From Henricia sp. BOLD:AAB3569 (lineage: Eukaryota; Echinodermata; Asteroidea; Spinulosida; Echinasteridae), in contig JBBELK010000691.1 of assembly GCA_037783545.1 (NCBI GenBank), positions 759,001 through 823,000 of the forward strand: a stretch of DNA of 64,000 bases. Reading direction: 5' to 3'. The translations under genes were made by a program, and so were the position numbers. This document shows positions 8,591 to 43,508 of this stretch, in pieces. The notes beneath the pieces were generated by a model, which had not been told where the DNA came from, made no database searches, and saw only the letters and a list, made by a program, of their open reading frames with translations. Each line of letters opens with the position of its first letter. Within the stretch, counting starts at the first letter, position 1.

Positions 8591-8880
8591 GAGGGAAACC
8601 TGAAGGGTACCACTGTGCCTCATAGCTCAACTGGTAGAGCATCTGCCTGGTGTGTCAGTGGTCTTGGGGAAAACCTGAGGGAGTGTACCACTATGCCTCA
8701 TAGCTCAGATGGTAGAGCATCTGCCCGGTGTGTCGGAGGTCTTGAGAAAACCTGAGGGAGTACATGTCACTTTGCCTCCGAGCTCAGCAAATAGAGCATC
8801 TTCCCGGTGCATGAGAGGTCTCGGGTTTGAATCCTGATGAGTCGATATGATTTTTCTCTCATCCCACGTTTAGATGAGAC
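8591..8880 (+). repeat. tandem tRNA-like array and SINE head (three units, about 78 bp each)
   Basis: Three head-to-tail units start at 8617, 8695 and 8774. Each opens GCCTC-(A/G)AGCTCA followed by TAGAGCATC, which is the tRNA 5' half with an A-box-like core. Only the third unit keeps a good B box (GGTTTGAATCC, 8824-8834). The first two have a degenerate GGGAAAACCTGA there. After the third unit comes TTTTTCTCTCATCCCA, also found beside the tRNA head of the minus-strand SINE at 25.9 kb. Units are joined by AAAACCTGAGGGAGT linkers, and a partial one precedes the first unit. Not functional tRNA genes: the anticodon arm and 3' acceptor stem do not pair. Confidence 0.8.
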
Positions 8881-34762: not shown

Positions 34763-34845
34763 CGGCATGCTCGGTGGTCAAGGGGTTAAGCAGCTGCCTA
34801 GTATGCAGGAGGTCGTGGGTTCGAGTCCTGCCCTAGCACGCTAAG
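34763..34845 (+). mobile_element. tRNA-derived pseudogene or SINE head
   Basis: GGTCAAGGGGTTAAG followed by a perfect B box GGTTCGAGTCC (34818-34828) is tRNA-like (leucine/serine type). It resembles the tRNA-derived fragment inside the MITE at 10321-10478 (shared TGCAGGAGGT, GTGGGTTCGAGTCC). The acceptor ends do not pair well, so a working tRNA is unlikely. After it, AATAACTTCCATG repeats twice. Confidence 0.65.
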
Positions 34846-34938
34846 AGTTTTTAGCGTGTCCGTGGGAAATAACTTCCATGGGCGAATAACTTCCATGTAT
34901 CATCATATTGAACAACGCAATATTTACTTAGTTAAAAG

Positions 34939-35230
34939 TTATGCACCTATCAATTGTTTCCCCCACCCCTCTATCCCCGGGCTACCCCACCTAAGAGGTG
35001 GGGATTGTCACTTTTTTGTGACAAAATCCCCACCCCTGGGGCAACATTTAGGTGACAAAAATCCCCACCCTTGGGTGCAGAACATGCCCGTCTTGTATAC
35101 AAATACACAGGTCAAATGCCCCACCTTTGGGCCTTGAAAAATTTGACCAAACTCCCACCTAGGGGGTGGGGCATTACAGGGGGGGTGGAGGGGGAGGGAT
35201 GGGTGGGGGAAACAATTGATAGGTGCATTA
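34939..35230. mobile_element. Harbinger-like MITE with TTA target duplications
   Basis: The element (34942-35227) begins TGCACCTATCAATTGTTTCC and ends with the inverse GGAAACAATTGATAGGTGCA. The arms continue as CCCCACCC/GGGTGGGG. TTA lies directly on both sides, the 3-bp duplication typical of PIF/Harbinger insertion. The interior has several CCCCACC words (one pair inverted: CCACCTAAGAGGTGG). No coding capacity. Confidence 0.9.
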
Positions 35231-35757
35231 GGATTAATGTTAAATTCTTTTTATTATATTATTGTATGTCTTTATGTGCATGTCAGGCAGTTGAGAACAA
35301 ACAAAATCTAAATCCAACAGCAAACCAATTCCAATTCAAAACTTGAGAAACCAATCTAAATATTAGTCAACTGAATTTCCAGTCTAGAAGACTAGCACAG
35401 TAAACACACTACCTCAAATGTGGGTCAAAATCTGGAGAGACAGAGAGAGAAAGAGACGGACATGTAACATAATAAAGGCATACACATGGGAAGCGAGTCC
35501 GATGTCTTTGCTACGCAAATGTTATTTCAGGGTAGGCCATGAAGTTTATCGTACAACAGCAGAATACATACATTCATGCATTCATTCATGGGTACTCGGT
35601 CTGGCCTGGTGTCATATGCACCTCTTATTGCACTTCTCAATTGGAGTGATTTGCTTGGCACAGAAATCGGCCGCAGTAAAAATAGTTCACTGGCCTCGGA
35701 GACAAGTTACAGTTAAAAGTACGGATGTCATGTGACTTGTTAGCTTGTGAGACGTCA
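35231..35757. other. non-coding stretch, nothing recognised
   Basis: Mixed AT-rich sequence with an AG-rich patch near 35435-35458. An open frame of 105 codons (plus strand, 35418-35735) has no recognised domain. Confidence 0.45.
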
Positions 35758-37830
35758 TGTGGACATTTTCACGTTTTGTAACATTACATGTAACGTCAGT
35801 TACCGTAAAAATGGCCTTATAGTGATCCAGGGATCTACATGTAGCATGTCATCATATGACACAACATATTCTGCATTCTATGACATGCTACATGTAGCTG
35901 TCCCATTCATATAAGGGCGTTTTCAGGGTAACTGTTACATGTAACGGCAGTTACCGTCAAAATGGCCTTATAGTGATCCAGCGATCTACATGTAGCATGT
36001 CATCATATGACACAACATATCCTGCATTATATGACATGCTACATGCGACATGTAGCTGTCCCATTCATTATTTATAAGGGCGTTTTCAGGGTAACTGATG
36101 TTACATGTAACGGCAGTTACCGTAAAAATGGCCTTATAGTGATCCAGCGATCTACATGTAGCATGTCATCATATGACACAACATATCCTGCATTCTATGA
36201 CATGCTACATGCTACATGTAGCTGTCCCATTCATTATTGATAAGGGCGTTTTCAGGGTAACTGATGTTACATGTAACGGCAGTTACCGTAAAAATGGCCT
36301 TATAGTGATCCAGCGATCTACATGTAGCATGTCATCATATGACACAACATATCCTGCATTATATGACATGCTACATGCTACATGTAGCTGTCCCATTCAT
36401 TATTTATAAGGGCGTTTTCAGGGTAACTGATGTTACATGTAACGGCAGTTACCGTAAAAATGGCCTTATAGTGATCCAGCGATCTACATGTAGCATGTCA
36501 TCATATGACACAACATATCCTGCATTCTCTGACATGCTACATGCTACATGTAGCTGTCCCATTCATTATTTATAAGGGCGTTTTCAGGGTAACTGATGTT
36601 ACATGTAACGGCAGTTACCGTAAAAATGGCCTTATAGTGATCCAGCGATCTACATGTAGCATGTCATCATATGACACAACATATCCTGCATTATATGACA
36701 TGCTACATGTAGCTGTCCCATTCATTATTGATAAGGGCGTTTTCAGGGTAACTGATGTTACATGTAACGGCAGTTACTGTAAAAATGGCCTTATAGTGAT
36801 CCAGCGATCTACTTGTAGCATGTCATCATATGACACAACATATCCTGCATTCTCTGACATGCTACATGCTACATGTAGCTGTCCCATTCATTATTTATAA
36901 GGGCGTTTTCAGGGTAACTGATGTTACATGTAACGGCAGTTACCGTAAAAATGGCCTTATAGTGATCCAGCGATCTACATGTAGCATGTCATCATATGAC
37001 ACAACATATCCTGCATTATATGACATGCTACATGTAGCTGTCCCATTCATTATTGATAAGGGCGTTTTCAGGGTAACTGATGTTACATGTAACGGCAGTT
37101 ACTGTAAAAATGGCCTTATAGTGATCCAGCGATCTACTTGTAGCATGTCATCATATGACACAACATATCCTGCATTCTCTGACATGCTACATGCTACATG
37201 TAGCTGTCCCATTCATTATTGATAAGGGCGTTTTCAGGGTAACTGATGTTACATGTAACGGCAGTTACCGTAAAAATTGCCTTATAGTGATCCAGCGATC
37301 TACATGTAGCATGTCATCATATGACACAACATATCCTGCATTATATGACATGCTACATGTAGCTGTCCCATTCATTATTGATAAGGGCGTTTTCAGGGTA
37401 ACTGATGTTACATGTAACGGCAGTTACTGTAAAAATGGCCTTATAGTGATCCAGCGATCTACTTGTAGCATGTCATCATATGACACAACATATCCTGCAT
37501 TCTCTGACATGCTACATGCTACATGTAGCTGTCCCATTCATTATTTATAAGGGCGTTTTCAGGGTAACTGATGTTACATGTAACGGCAGTTACCGTAAAA
37601 ATGGCCTTATAGTGATCCAGCGATCTACATGTAGCATGTCATCATATGACACAACATATCCTGCATTCTATGACATGCTACATGTACATGTAGCTGTCCC
37701 ATTCATTATTGATAAGGGCGTTTTCAGGGTAACTGATGTTACATGTAACGACAGTTACCGTAAAAATGGCCTTATAGTGATCCAGCGATCTACATAGCAT
37801 GTCATCCTATGACATAACATATCCTGCATC
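35758..37830. repeat. 13-copy palindromic satellite with a 325-bp dimeric higher-order repeat
   Basis: The marker word ATGGCCTTATAGTG starts near 35811, 35962, 36128, 36294, 36460, 36626, 36785, 36951, 37110, 37276 (variant), 37435, 37601 and 37766. Spacings are 151, 166, 166, 166, 166, 159, 166, 159, 166, 159, 166 and 165. From copy 6 to copy 12 the units alternate 166 + 159, that is, a 325-bp dimer repeated three times. The 159-type units are marked by TTACTGTAAAAA and TCTACTTGTAG. Each unit holds two palindromes. One runs from TATAAGGGCGTTTTCAGGG to CCGTAAAAATGGCCTTATA around GTTACATGTAAC. The other pairs CTACATGTAGCATGTCAT with ATGACATGCTACATGTAG. Repeated open frames starting at ATGACACAACATA are artefacts, because 166 and 325 are not multiples of three. 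Confidence 0.97.
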
Positions 37831-38560
37831 AAATTTGGAAAACAAATCTTAGTATTTCATTAATTTAATGGAACTCAAGAAACAAGTCAAACTGAGAAGC
37901 AAAACGAAGCCAACAAATATTCCGATCTACTTAAAGAAAAAGGTTTTTCTGTGTTTTGGTTGGACTAATCCTGATCATCCCGATCGCAGAAAATACCCGT
38001 CTCTGCTCTGGCAGTGAGTAAATGTTATCTTCGTGGCGAAAGCACGGCACAGACAACAAGTCAAATACAGTAATTGTATTATGTGGGCTTGCGACGTTAT
38101 TTGGTTAATAGATAAAAACGCATGCCGATCATCCTAGCACCCCCACCACTGAAGAATTATTTCATGGCAAATTCTAAGCTTACTTTCCCGCAGTCCAGGC
38201 ACATTGCCTAAAATTGAATTTGTTGCTCAACTGTGACGTGAACTGTAGAAATATTTGTCACTCTAAAATAAGCAGGAGAAAAGACATGTTTGCCCATTGC
38301 CAATTTGGGGATAATAAATGTTATGATTTGGACATGTAGCCTTCTTTAATACATGTATTTGGAAGCAACATCAGCACATTTATCTTAAGTACCCTAAATC
38401 CTTCAAAATTTACTCCTTAACTTTGCAATATTTTAGAACAGTGCATTTAGCATTGCCCCAATTTAATTTAAGTCCAATTTGCACTAAAGCAGATCTCTAT
38501 GTGCCCATTTATCACGTTTATAATCATTGAACTATTTATCTTATTGTTAAAAATTTAACA
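37831..38560. other. non-coding stretch, nothing recognised
   Basis: AT-rich flank of the satellite; no gene or repeat seen. Confidence 0.5.
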
Positions 38561-38978
38561 TTAAAAGTAGTCTACAAGATTGATAAACTATTACAAATAG
38601 TTTTATCTCCCTGTATGATTGAAGATATGCATTATTAAAACCAACCTGAGTAAAAGTCAGCTCCGTACTTTGTCTAACTTTTGAGAAAACAGTCAAAAAA
38701 AGCTTTACAGTCACTTCGCCCAAAAACCACTTCACCCTGAACCTGTGCATGAAGTTGTTTTTGGGCGAAGTGGCATATGGGCGAAGTGGTGTTTTGGGCG
38801 AAGTGGCTTTTGGGCGAAGTGAATTTTCAATCTCTTGAGATAAAAATTAATTGTTTTACTTATTTCTCAAAGACTATAGCACTTCAGACAAAACCATTTT
38901 ATCATGTTTATATTGTGTAAGTGTAAATCTGTGAACATTTCTGATTTTCGAGATACCAATTATGTGTTTTACCTTTAA
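38561..38978 (+). mobile_element. TTAA-flanked element with internal GGGCGAAGTGG minisatellite, copy A
   Basis: It begins TTAAAAGTAG and ends CCTTTAA. The left body has CTATTACAAATAGTT and CTTTGTCTAACTTTTGAGA. The centre is made of GGGCGAAGTGG units, partly in inverted order (CACTTCGCCCAAAAACCACT against TTTTTGGGCGAAGTGG). The right body has TCTCAAAGACTATAGCACTT and TCTGATTTTCGAGA. Copy B at 41651-42161 is the same element in the opposite orientation. TTAA ends suggest piggyBac-type mobilisation. No protein is encoded. Confidence 0.87.
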
Positions 38979-40683
38979 TTCTCAGACATAAAAATGAAAG
39001 AATAAAAGGTTTTAAAAACAACAAAGATTTCGAAAGAAGGCTTCTAGTTCTGTATCCTTATTTGTTTACTTCCAACTTCTCTCAAGATGTTAAAACATGT
39101 TACTAATTTTAGATTTTTGGTTTTTAAAATTTGTGTCAATGGCCAGCTTTTCACATAGGCCTACTATTTGTTTTACTTTAGTTTGGACTTTTCATCTAAA
39201 ATTAGTACAAACGTACTGATTTTTTACACAAAGACTCGAGTGCGATGTAAGCAAGGACAAGGGAATACTGATTATTTTGAACAGAAACAAAAAGAAACTG
39301 TTATCGCTCACCAATGATACATCATGATGTAATCTTGCCTAGGGCTGGGATTGTGTGTCACAGCATGCAAAGCAGGGTGAAAACAATGGTCTGTCAAAAG
39401 AGCGCCCTCTGCTGACTCATTGCATCCATGCCTAGCAACTACATGACTAATGTGATGCATACAGAATGCATGGGAGGACCCTAGAGTTTTTGTTGTCTAA
39501 ATTAAATGAACAATAATTAAAAATGAACAATTAAATAAATACTAAAATAAACAAATGACTCATTACACATAGTACTTTGGTCTTTCCTTTAGTTAATACA
39601 TCATTTGACACTACATTTCTGATGTGTTTAAAATTTGTGTCAATCTATTTATGAACAACGCATTGTTTGAGTTACTTTCTGCAACGTGTTACATACCAGT
39701 AGCTCGCCTCTACAGAAATAGACAAATTAAAGAACTTGAGAACATTTTCTGGATAGAGTTGCTCCGTACCAATGTGAAACATGTCTTATGTGAACTTTGC
39801 GACCCGGTAAACTAAGAAACCAGAATCCATTTTGCAACGAGAAAGACGACCAAGGAGTGGGGAAAGTGGAGACCCTCGGGCAAACAGGTTCTGAACTTTG
39901 TCTAGCATTTCCATCCACCTTATTGGCATTGCGTGGCATGCTCGCGTATTGACACTGCTAAGCTTTCCAAAGAGAGTATCAGTAGCAACCCAAGTGGAAA
40001 TTAATCTCCCAAAATGGCCTTTTAAACCGGGGTACTTAAATGAAAAGGTGGCTTTACCCCGATCAACTGACTCGTGGTAATACACAACCACGGGAGGGGG
40101 GTCGAGCCTGAAGCATCTCTCTCGGATTCTGTTGATCAAAAACATGATCTAAGATCTCCCCACGCAACTCTCAGTATTCTAAGATGCTTAAAAATGTGAA
40201 TGCAAACAAGAAAAAGGATTGAAGAAGCTTTGGGGGACATTATGACTACGTCTTGGTAAATACGCCTTGCAGGAAAACGACAAACAGGCAAAGACAAGGG
40301 GGAGGGGCAGGGGGATCGAAGTTGAAGAAAAAACTTGTACGAAAATGAGGAATTACGAATTTGTATGTAAGAATGATTTATGGCTGTATCTAGATTTGAC
40401 GACATGGTGGCCACGCAGAGAGCAATTATGGAGACGCAACGCGACGAGTATGATTGCTTGTAAACACTGAAGCAATACTAAGCTGAGATTTCTAGTTTGA
40501 TACGTACGCCTCCTCAGCATATTAAACTGTCTTGCAGACGTTATGAAGAGGTGGACAGGCTCCAAATCCTCCCCCACTACCGGCCCCAAAACATACAAGA
40601 ATCTTGGCCAAAAAGTGGAGCATGTGTGATAAAAACCGAAATATACGACAGAAGAACCAAATATTGCATACCTGTAAGAGACT
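38979..40683. other. non-coding stretch; 39.78-40.15 kb less AT-rich
   Basis: AT-rich to 39.7 kb. Between 39.78 and 40.15 kb the sequence is balanced, with a 119-codon minus-strand open frame that has no recognisable domain. This could be a conserved element (it contains GGAAATTAATCTCC) or a small unrecognised exon. No gene is called. Confidence 0.4.
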
Positions 40684-40820
40684 TAGGCTGGATCCGAATT
40701 AGTGGCTTTGGCTGCGGCTATGGCTGTTGCTATGTCGTTGCTATGGGCGGACAATGACAGTCCTTAGAAACAGCATAGCAACAGCCACAGCCACAGCCAC
40801 TAATTCGGATCCAGCTTTAA
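40684..40820. mobile_element. foldback element with GCTGGATCCGAATTAGTGGC arms
   Basis: The left arm runs GCTGGATCCGAATTAGTGGC, then TTTGGCTGCGGCTATGGC. The right arm is the inverse with few mismatches over about 48 bp. The loop of about 30 bases holds GGGCGGACAATGACAG. The outer edges read TTAGGC and GCTTTAA, so TTAA-type flanks are possible but imperfect on the left. Internal GGCTNTGG units give it a minisatellite look. Confidence 0.82.
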
Positions 40821-41085
40821 TCTCAGTTAATCAATACACAGTCTGTTCCAAAACTGCTTCGTGATTAAAGAAACGTGCAGTAGAAAGTCTGTACTTTTCA
40901 AGGGGGTTTTCAACCTTTTAGAAAGATCATAGTCGGGTCAAGATGTCTAAGATCATAAATTATGTCCGATCTTATCACAATGCAGATATTAATCCTATTT
41001 TATCTCATTTATCCCATTTTAATCCTGCTCAATCCACAACTGCCTATACACCATTGTACATACAGGAGATAACCCTAAAACTCCA
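40821..41085. other. non-coding spacer
   Basis: AT-rich; nothing recognised. Confidence 0.5.
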
Positions 41086-41199
41086 GGGGTCGATTTCACA
41101 AAACGCTAAGATTCGTCTCAGGAAGGGTTACTCGTTTTATCTTGATACAAATACTATGTAGGATCAATCCTAAGATAAGAGTTTTGTGAAATCGGCCCC
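41086..41199. mobile_element. small foldback, GGGG-CGATTTCACAAAAC ends
   Basis: GGGGTCGATTTCACAAAAC is inverted at the right as GTTTTGTGAAATCGGCCCC (one mismatch). The arms continue through CTAAGAT/ATCCTAAGAT-type words. Elements with this end are very common in deuterostome invertebrate genomes (from memory). The 34290-34406 foldback shares the CGATTTCACRAAAC core. Confidence 0.87.
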
Positions 41200-41650
41200 A
41201 GGTACAACAAGGATTGTGTATTATTCCCTTTGCCACAACCAAGACATTTGACTGAACATTACAGAAAACCAGCTTAATGTGAAATGCCTACGATCCAAAC
41301 CAGAATCGCGCTTTTTCCTGCAGGGGATGCGCATATTTCTAACTGGAAAAGCAGAGACCAGACTGTCAAAAAACAACGGCAAATGTATTCAAGGGGAACA
41401 TTCTGCTTCAAACCACATGATGGTGAGCATTGCAAATTGCCATTTGTGTAACCTAAGGGAAAACGAATCCCAACCTTCTGTATAATTGCGGTGTAATGTA
41501 CAGAGCTAAGTGTAGCAATCGTTATAAAGATTAGGGCTTGAATGTGATTGTACGGGGGCAGAGTGGAATGGCTGGGGGGAAACTTTATTAGGCCCCCTCT
41601 AACTCTGCTCCCCCTCCCCCCAAAAAACAAACCCTTTTGTTTAGCTTCTC
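41200..41650. other. non-coding stretch, nothing recognised
   Basis: Mixed sequence with a C-rich patch near 41609-41625. A minus-strand open frame of 118 codons has no domain. Confidence 0.45.
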
Positions 41651-42161
41651 TTAAAGGCAGTATACAAAATCTCGAAAATCAGAAATGTTCACAGATTTAC
41701 GCCTAACTTACACAATATAAACATGATGACCGTAGAAAACTTCCCCTGAAATGGTTCTGTCTGAAGTGCTACAGTCTTTGAGAAATTAGTAAAACAATTA
41801 GTTTTCAATTCGAAAATTCAATTCGCCCCAAAACCATTTCGCCCAAGTGCCATTTCGCCCCAAACCACTTCGCCCGAGTGCCATTTCACCCCAAATTACT
41901 TCGTCCAAACACTACATCGCCCAAATGCCACTTCGCCCCAAAACCACTTCGTGCACAGGCCGTGGTTCTGGGCGAAATGGTTCAGGGCGAAATGGTTTTG
42001 GAACGAAATGACTGCAAACCCTTTTTTGACTGTTTTCTCAAAAGTTAGACGAAGTATGGAGCTGGTTTTTGCTGATGTTGGTTTTAATCATGCATATCTT
42101 CAATCACACAGGGGGATACAACTATTTGTAACAGTTTACCAATCATGTATACTATCTTTAA
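41651..42161 (-). mobile_element. TTAA-flanked element with internal minisatellite, copy B (inverted relative to copy A)
   Basis: The ends TTAAAGGCAGTATACA and TGTATACTATCTTTAA are inverted with two mismatches. The centre (about 41815-42000) has some eight units of CATTTCGCCC or CACTTCGCCCCAAA type, turning at GTGCACAGGCCGTGG into GGGCGAAATGG units. It is about 90 bp longer than copy A, mostly from extra minisatellite units. Open frames here are artefacts. Confidence 0.9.
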
Positions 42162-43508
42162 TGCTTTTAAACACAGCACAATCTGGCAGAGAGAGCCTAC
42201 TGTCCCTATACCTCAACACACTGTTGAGGATGCGCAAACATCCCACCCATCCAAATTATCCCACCCCCCTCCCCACCAAAAAAAAAGCCCGAAAATAATT
42301 CCTTTAAAGTTCCTTGCATGTTTGAGATACAATGAGGGAACAATGGAGTGGGAGTTTCCTTTTCCACTTATTGTGCACCAAATATTACTTTTGGTCTACT
42401 GGCCCCAACTCCCCTAACCCTCTGACCCTCTAACCCCCTCAACCACCACCCCCAAAACAAATCTTATTTTCAGTTCGAATGGAACTTGAAATTTGCATTT
42501 CTTTGTTGGCATGAGTATTATCTGTTTTATACCCGTTTCTAAATTAAACATGAAACGGGAGGAGAACCTGGGGTAGGGGGGCACTTGCCCAATCATGTCC
42601 AATCGGTCAAATGGTTGCAGATGGGTAGACTTCCTGAGTTAAGGTTGGGGTAAACACAATAGATGGATGGGAGTCTCCTTTGCTCGTGACAAAAGGGGAA
42701 GGTAGGGAAACAACTATACCCACGATGATTGAAAGTATCAATTCCATCCGCAACTGGACAAGTCATCTAAATGATGAAATATTCAACAGGAAAAAACCAA
42801 GGCAGACTTTTTTGTGGGGACTTATCAATTATATTTTCTTTATTTTCCCCCTCCCCCAACCCCCTAGATACTGCACAGACCTACAGCTTCAAAAGTGAGT
42901 TAAACCAAGCCAAAACGGATGAACAAAAGAAGACAAAATTCAAGACATTTTAGCAGAGTTTGTTAAAATTTTGAGGTTACAATACTTCAAATATTTTACT
43001 CACAGACAAAACTGCTACACAAAAAATATTTTCAGATAAATCCTTACTTGTTTGCGTAGTCAGTTTCTTCAGAGTGAAAGCAATCCGCTCAGCTGGGACC
43101 CACATACGCAAAAATGAGCCTTGGAGTTGAATAAAACAAGTTTGCTTATTGCAATAAAAACATCTTAAAGCAAGTCTTTGTGTTTGCTTTTGAAATGATT
43201 CCTTTTGAATGATTCCTGGCATATCTTCAGGCAATAAACCACACATTGGCTCAGTCTAAATATCAAGATTAGAGTGGGCAGCTGGTAACGTTAATGCCAA
43301 ACAAGCATTGCTTTATCTCTGCATAAACTGCAACAATTCCTTTACAAATTCTCATTCATTTCCGATCAAATTAAATGGCAAATGGGGGGAGGGGGGTGGG
43401 GGTTGATTTAAATTTCAAACATGGATGTCATCATCAACCTTTACAAAGGAGCCACATCAAGTAGGGAGTAAAGAGACAAATTGGGAGGTTTTATAGTACA
43501 AGTGCAGT
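42162..43508. other. non-coding stretch with C-rich patches
   Basis: Short C-rich runs lie near 42245-42275 and 42410-42450, and G-rich sequence near 43385-43402. No gene or repeat family seen. Confidence 0.5.

Follow-up and report, generated by a model that had tools for sequence, protein, structure and literature searches.

The window, by which we mean the whole stretch of 64,000 nucleotides analyzed here, contains a tandem array of palindromic units 2 kb in length, and the question raised by this locus is how such an array begins. The beginnings of satellites are hard to observe, because finished arrays conceal them. We consider it probable (roughly 0.8) that the array is a non-autonomous DNA transposon (MITE) that turned into a small satellite in place.

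We delimited the array by TRF, unit cutting and alignment, a pal2 profile and the location of its ends (coordinates of the array and its parts refer to the forward strand). TRF reported an array at 35784–37829 with a period of 166, 12.6 copies and 94% matches, and a period of 325 scored slightly higher (96% matches). Cutting at an anchor yielded 13 units with spacings of 154, 163, 166, 166, 166, 159, 166, 159, 166, 159, 166 and 165. The expanded element accordingly consists of 13 tandem modules at 35761–37829 (2069 bp), each composed of two palindromes, pal1 and pal2, with module 13 truncated; adjacent units have one pal1 in common. Throughout the window, the pal2 profile detected 13 modules within the array and 0 outside it. 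The first-pass annotation had described 13 units with two palindromes each, at 35758–37830; TRF, anchor cutting and folding bear out this description and the array is real, with its left end at 35761 rather than 35758. No open reading frame of at least 150 aa was found in the array. Rfam gave no match to the array at the gathering score, and a permissive search returned five weak MIR6217/MIR7996 matches (26–33 bits, where the cut-offs are 110 and 119), which we took to be hairpin look-alikes. Elsewhere in the window, a tRNA-Thr(AGT) gene on which ARAGORN and Rfam agree lies at 34768–34839, ~0.9 kb upstream of the array, and a 78-bp tandem repeat (2.7 copies, 8607–8821) has a unit that looks tRNA-derived by eye (TAGCTCAAATGGTAGAGCAT...), with no tRNA call by ARAGORN or Rfam in that interval.

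The two borders of the array differ in kind. Unit 1 opens with a diverged terminal variant, and the left border at 35761 is the MITE's own left end, with the asymmetric TTTGTAACA variant known from the left ends of dispersed copies; this left terminus and the first pal1 (GGACATTTTCACGTTTTGTAACATTACATGTAAC..., an asymmetric 5΄-end variant at 35761–35816) are like the terminus GGGCATTTTCACGGTTTGTAAC at dispersed loci. The right border, at 37829, falls inside pal2 of unit 13, and the truncated last module (37716–37829) stops at the junction CCTGCAT/CAAATTTGG. Since the array ends within the last pal2, the right MITE end is missing, so that no target duplication is demonstrable at the window copy, and the copy is probably no longer able to jump.

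We computed the folding of the unit as DNA, and the 166-bp unit formed two hairpins (–38.3 kcal/mol; average of the shuffles, –15.65; z = –8.0). For example, pal1 of unit 8 (36899–36958), the equivalent of the terminal inverted repeat of the MITE, has a 4-nt loop (fold of 36899–36965, –16.8 kcal/mol, z = –6.75), and pal2 of the same unit (36976–37036), the centre of the MITE, is a 17-bp inverted repeat, TACATGTAGCATGTCAT..ATGACATGCTACATGTA, around a loop of 27 nt (fold of 36976–37059, z = –4.27). According to these folds, cruciform extrusion could be possible at pal1 with its 4-nt loop, and the ~27-nt loop of pal2 does not favour it. Two pal1 copies of the window were 0.71 (the first, 35761–35816) and 0.79 identical to their own reverse complements, compared with ~0.50 for shuffled sequences (0.51 for the first copy; 0/200 shuffles as high in each case), and nine exact-ended pal1 palindromes were seen. 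Among eight chosen dispersed copies, 11 of the 16 ends surpassed 95% of their shuffled versions in this identity, and five fell short of this mark (the 5΄ end of L021, the 3΄ ends of L031 and L060 and both ends of L044); the palindromic end is thus a family trait that has been worn away in some present copies. As whole sequences, seven of these eight single copies were 0.62–0.72 identical to their own reverse complements (shuffled, 0.50–0.53), and the eighth, L060, reached 0.54, hardly above its shuffled value of 0.50. In the structural sense, then, the element is a foldback, since most of it can pair with itself. A separate foldback-like element of ~3.6 kb lies at 38559–42163 of the window, with inverted arms that align over 496 bp at 70% identity and contain 16-bp minisatellites (TTCGCCCCAAAACCAC) oriented oppositely in the two arms; its outer left part (38545–38700) matches at least 37 other places.

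The units are also organized at a higher level. A 325-bp dimer (159+166) is repeated three times at 36489–37463, with 0/325 and then 2/325 differences between successive copies, as the first-pass annotation had recognized, and near-identity at a lag of 325 spans ~36373 to 37686. The alternation of 159 and 166 covers units 6 to 11: units 7, 9 and 11 are identical, as are units 6 and 8, and unit 10 differs from the latter two at 2 sites. Over units 2–12, the mean difference was 4.9 between neighbours and 2.1 at a lag of two, and an equally strong alternation arose in only 76 of 100,000 shuffles of unit order, so that the A/B alternation suspected at first sight was recovered by unit alignment. 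The array is therefore a satellite with a higher-order repeat, in that a multi-unit block is more alike between its copies than are the neighbouring units inside it.

A two-unit probe was then run against the window's own assembly (740.7 Mb in 2104 contigs) and gave at least 133 matches, with the window array and matches on both strands counted in; this number is a lower bound because scoring covered the best 40 of the 123 first-look candidates, namely the window and 39 other contigs. Sequences were taken from all 39 scored places on other contigs and from 20 of 21 further places that matched an end pattern. Dispersed single copies were indeed present in the genome, with the structure pal1-pal2-pal1 and mostly 204–215 bp in length: of 15 one-module elements for which both ends could be placed, 10 fell in this range, and the others measured 178, 227, 329, 431 and 509 bp. 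They begin with GGGCATTTTCACGG and finish with CCGTGAAAATGCCC, with some variation, and their inverted ends read GGGC..GCCC. Short, dispersed, nearly constant in length and bounded by terminal inverted repeats, these copies have the features of a MITE. At the 20 end-pattern places (~1 kb each), copies were complete, diverged, interrupted or truncated at the 3΄ side, and no coding partner or transposase was seen in these stretches. A search for an autonomous partner through the end patterns (at most one mismatch; 31 and 79 sites, compared by eye) revealed no facing pair at 0.5–15 kb. The full-length pattern with exact ends occurred at six genome sites, two of which (C308:2286543-2286749 and C852:206676-206888) combine exact GGGCATTTTCA..TGAAAATGCCC ends and MITE-like spacing with a different interior, either by chance or as a relative sharing these ends. 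Another repeat of ~290 bp with inverted ends of ~38 bp, at 34938–35231 of the window, is likely a separate MITE family and has 38 other places at 82–89% identity among the best 40 of 3972 candidates scored.

Flanking sequences were compared for 20 elements whose outer ends, picked by eye, were both located; the second members of paired loci (L022, L038, L040 and L045) and loci without both outer ends placed were left out. The identity of the two flanks at a length of 4 bp was 0.68, compared with 0.31 between loci, and at lengths of 2, 3, 5, 6, 7 and 8 bp it was at most 0.02 above background (for example, 0.27 versus 0.25 at 3 bp and 0.26 versus 0.25 at 5 bp). Six of the 20 elements had a perfect 4-bp duplication, six matched at three of the four positions and eight at none to two, and 0 of 20,000 shuffles reached six perfect duplications. 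For example, L018, an array of two modules, has the perfect duplication CTAT on both sides. The family is a MITE with 4-bp target duplications and is not flanked by TA. The TA duplication of Stowaway and Tc1/mariner elements was absent (2-bp identity 0.30 within and 0.30 between loci), and the 8–10-bp duplications of Mutator-type foldback elements were likewise absent at 8 bp (0.22 versus 0.27 between loci), the longest length compared. Superfamilies besides Sola also make 4-bp duplications. The family agrees with Sola in the length of the duplication, Sola2 being described as producing 4-bp duplications (PMC3627910).

These ends and duplications bear directly on two other explanations. The first-pass annotation had regarded the palindrome as a TA-flanked MITE with TATA...TATA ends and the unit as this MITE plus its flank, that is, a Tc1/mariner-type element amplified together with host sequence. 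The origin from a foldback element holds, given the dispersed foldback copies, and the boundaries and the TA reading do not. Although pal1 of the array reads TATAAGGGCG..GGCCTTATA, the dispersed copies end in GGGC..GCCC and are flanked by 4-bp duplications, and at 2 bp their flanks are no more alike than background; the TATA of the array is part of the internal TTATAATGACCC segment of the MITE, where TTATAA adjoins pal2; and the unit corresponds to the MITE without one of its two terminal repeats and contains no host flank. We therefore find amplification of a TA-duplicating MITE with its flank barely credible. Helitrons and Helentrons, for their part, are not known to have terminal inverted repeats or target duplications, and the present family has both, with a repeated module that is the element itself and no cargo. 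A satellite carried by such a rolling-circle element is thus very improbable here, despite the short satellite-like arrays that, according to PMC7492417, are dispersed with Helentrons in the Pacific oyster; the likeness is that of small arrays scattered with a mobile element, and the difference is the rolling-circle carrier.

It is improbable, too, that an ordinary satellite came first and that the single copies are fragments seeded from arrays. Arrays and single copies do coexist, and some arrays mix modules of different tree clades; however, the single copies have defined ends with 4-bp duplications, and the modules of the window and of L009, the second copy of the locus on C105, form one clade, as local expansion predicts. 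The manner in which the extra modules were added is less clear-cut, and we regard it as rather unlikely that they came from an excised circle amplified by rolling circle and re-inserted, or from MITEs inserting into each other's ends. Both routes have been published for satellites derived from transposable elements (PMC12628747), and runs of pal1-pal1-pal1 at L011 indicate more than one kind of rearrangement. Against these routes, neighbouring modules share one pal1 that is flanked on both sides by internal element sequence alone, repeated insertion should leave duplications, and the borders are equal in both copies of the locus.

We examined whether arrays exist elsewhere by running the pal2 profile on 60 sources (the window, the 39 scored places and the 20 end-pattern places). 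The pal2 module was present in 56 of the 60 sources, and 17 of these 56 contained two or more modules, a proportion that is not a genome-wide rate, because the sample is biased toward good matches to the two-unit probe and paired loci are counted twice. The other arrays have two to six modules, and at L046 the two modules are ~0.7 kb apart. L011 (C797:224900-230200) is a compound array in which a separate higher-order repeat of 428 bp is present in 2.7 copies and some stretches consist of pal1 alone. A tree was built from 72 of 98 modules (26 were dropped as too short) over 108 usable columns, with a bootstrap that had not settled. The 12 full window modules and the two full modules of L009 formed one clade (100/100); the modules of L011, L013, L018 and the pair L019/L029 grouped by locus with starred support, and those of L015/L020 grouped with weaker support (99/75). 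Modules of L010, L012, L014 and L017 formed no single locus clades; these arrays may have been built from different copies, or 108 columns may be too few. Other loci thus carry separate small arrays. At L010:1241-1645 (C15), a further repeat of ~405 bp has at least 39 other copies at 96–98% identity among 40 scored, and is probably a recently active family.

The second copy of the window's locus provides a comparison. C105 is collinear with window positions 1–63451, in pieces ~90–99% identical with gaps between, and to judge from this alignment it most probably represents the second haplotype of an assembly that retains both; we infer this status, and C105 may alternatively be a segmental duplication. 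At L009, the element shares its left terminus and its right junction with the window copy; it is 432 bp long with three modules, the last truncated, compared with 2069 bp and 13 modules, a difference that could in principle be an assembly error. Of the three array loci with two copies fetched, two differ in module number, namely the window's locus and the L019/L029 pair (three versus two modules), and the L015/L020 pair has two modules in each copy. No second copies of L010 and L011 were found among 40 scored candidates, all of which were filled by abundant flank repeats. The flanks of five further contig pairs (L021/L022, L026/L027, L031/L038, L036/L045 and L040/L043) align at 88–99.9%, and the assembly seems, from such alignments of paired contigs, to keep both haplotypes. 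The same assembly has three COX1 copies on C955, spaced by 16,221 bp, and a single one on C2104, and the gene contains 11 in-frame TGA codons; probably, a mitochondrial genome was here assembled as a concatemer, plus a separate contig.

The two locus copies also allow a relative date for the higher-order repeat. In the nearest flank pieces, 26/2004 and 20/1008 positions differ between the window and C105 with gaps left out, and 14/389 and 9/589 differ in two further pieces on the right-hand side. By a hand calculation from the nearest pieces, which assumes equal rates and no conversion, ~10 differences per 650 positions are expected if the 325-bp blocks date back to the split between the locus copies. 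Successive blocks differ at 2/650 positions, so that the higher-order repeat, or at least its last duplications, is probably younger than this split.

The structure of pal1 suggests a route from single element to array. Because pal1 approximates its own reverse complement, the two ends of the MITE would be at once inverted repeats, available to a transposase, and direct repeats, available to recombination or replication slippage, and (pal1-pal2)n would result if they exchanged or slipped against each other. Such events, with exchange being unequal, first between the pair of pal1 copies in a single insertion and later between any two pal1 copies, may have gained or lost whole pal2-pal1 modules, giving pal1-(pal2-pal1)n and leaving the ends untouched. 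Exchange at pal1 is consistent with the pal1 common to adjacent units, with the equal borders of both locus copies and with the two modules of L018 between its CTAT duplications. The identical right junction in the window and C105 implies that the right end would have been lost before these copies separated, and module number changed further after this loss, standing at 13 in one copy and three in the other. A block of two modules may later have been duplicated, as the near-identity of the blocks suggests, to form the 325-bp higher-order repeat. Exchange, slippage and rolling-circle re-insertion look the same in these sequences, and the step by which module number changes is one that we infer. 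The array is most likely neutral, unstable DNA, for which we propose no host function.

MITE-derived satellites and allelic changes of copy number have already been published (Xstir, miDNA4 and Tetris), and comparison with them shows what is particular here. As described in PMC4079207, Tetris of Drosophila virilis is likewise a foldback, non-autonomous element without an autonomous copy found, whose TIR repeats (TIR-220) became satellite arrays and which offers an allelic pair with three versus four repeats; its ~220-bp repeats lie inside the TIRs and its duplications are 8–10 bp, whereas the module of the window's family comprises all of the MITE except one palindromic TIR, and its duplications are 4 bp. 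The reviews PMC12628747 and PMC9659126 list further cases along with the routes proposed for them, among them two from Xenopus. Xstir (Hikosaka and Kawahara 2004) resembles the present family as a tandem array on MITEs with mixed forms coexisting, and differs in its source, internal or TIR sequence, and in the stem-loop mechanism proposed for it; miDNA4 of Xenopus tropicalis is a satellite that occurs within a MITE either as a single monomer or as an array of variable length, and differs in being of the Tc1/mariner type with a proposed capture of a pre-existing repeat. The window's MITE family was not named in titles and abstract openings of the open-licence literature, searched without the organism name. 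Its distinctive features are a module that is the whole MITE less one end, palindromic ends and a 4-bp duplication.

The MITE family presents, within one genome, many stages of satellite formation: single copies flanked by duplications, arrays of two to six modules, the window's array with its 13 modules and higher-order repeat, and paired loci whose module numbers differ. A broader idea, which we put forward tentatively and hold at somewhat less than even odds, is that the MITE is self-tandemising, in the sense that palindromic ends let every insertion grow into a satellite with a higher-order repeat, even after transposition has ended. If this is true, the arrays at several loci and the contrast of 13 versus three modules would constitute a natural time series of satellite birth in one genome. 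These results raise the question of whether tandem growth is more frequent in MITEs whose ends are palindromic than in those with ordinary inverted ends.
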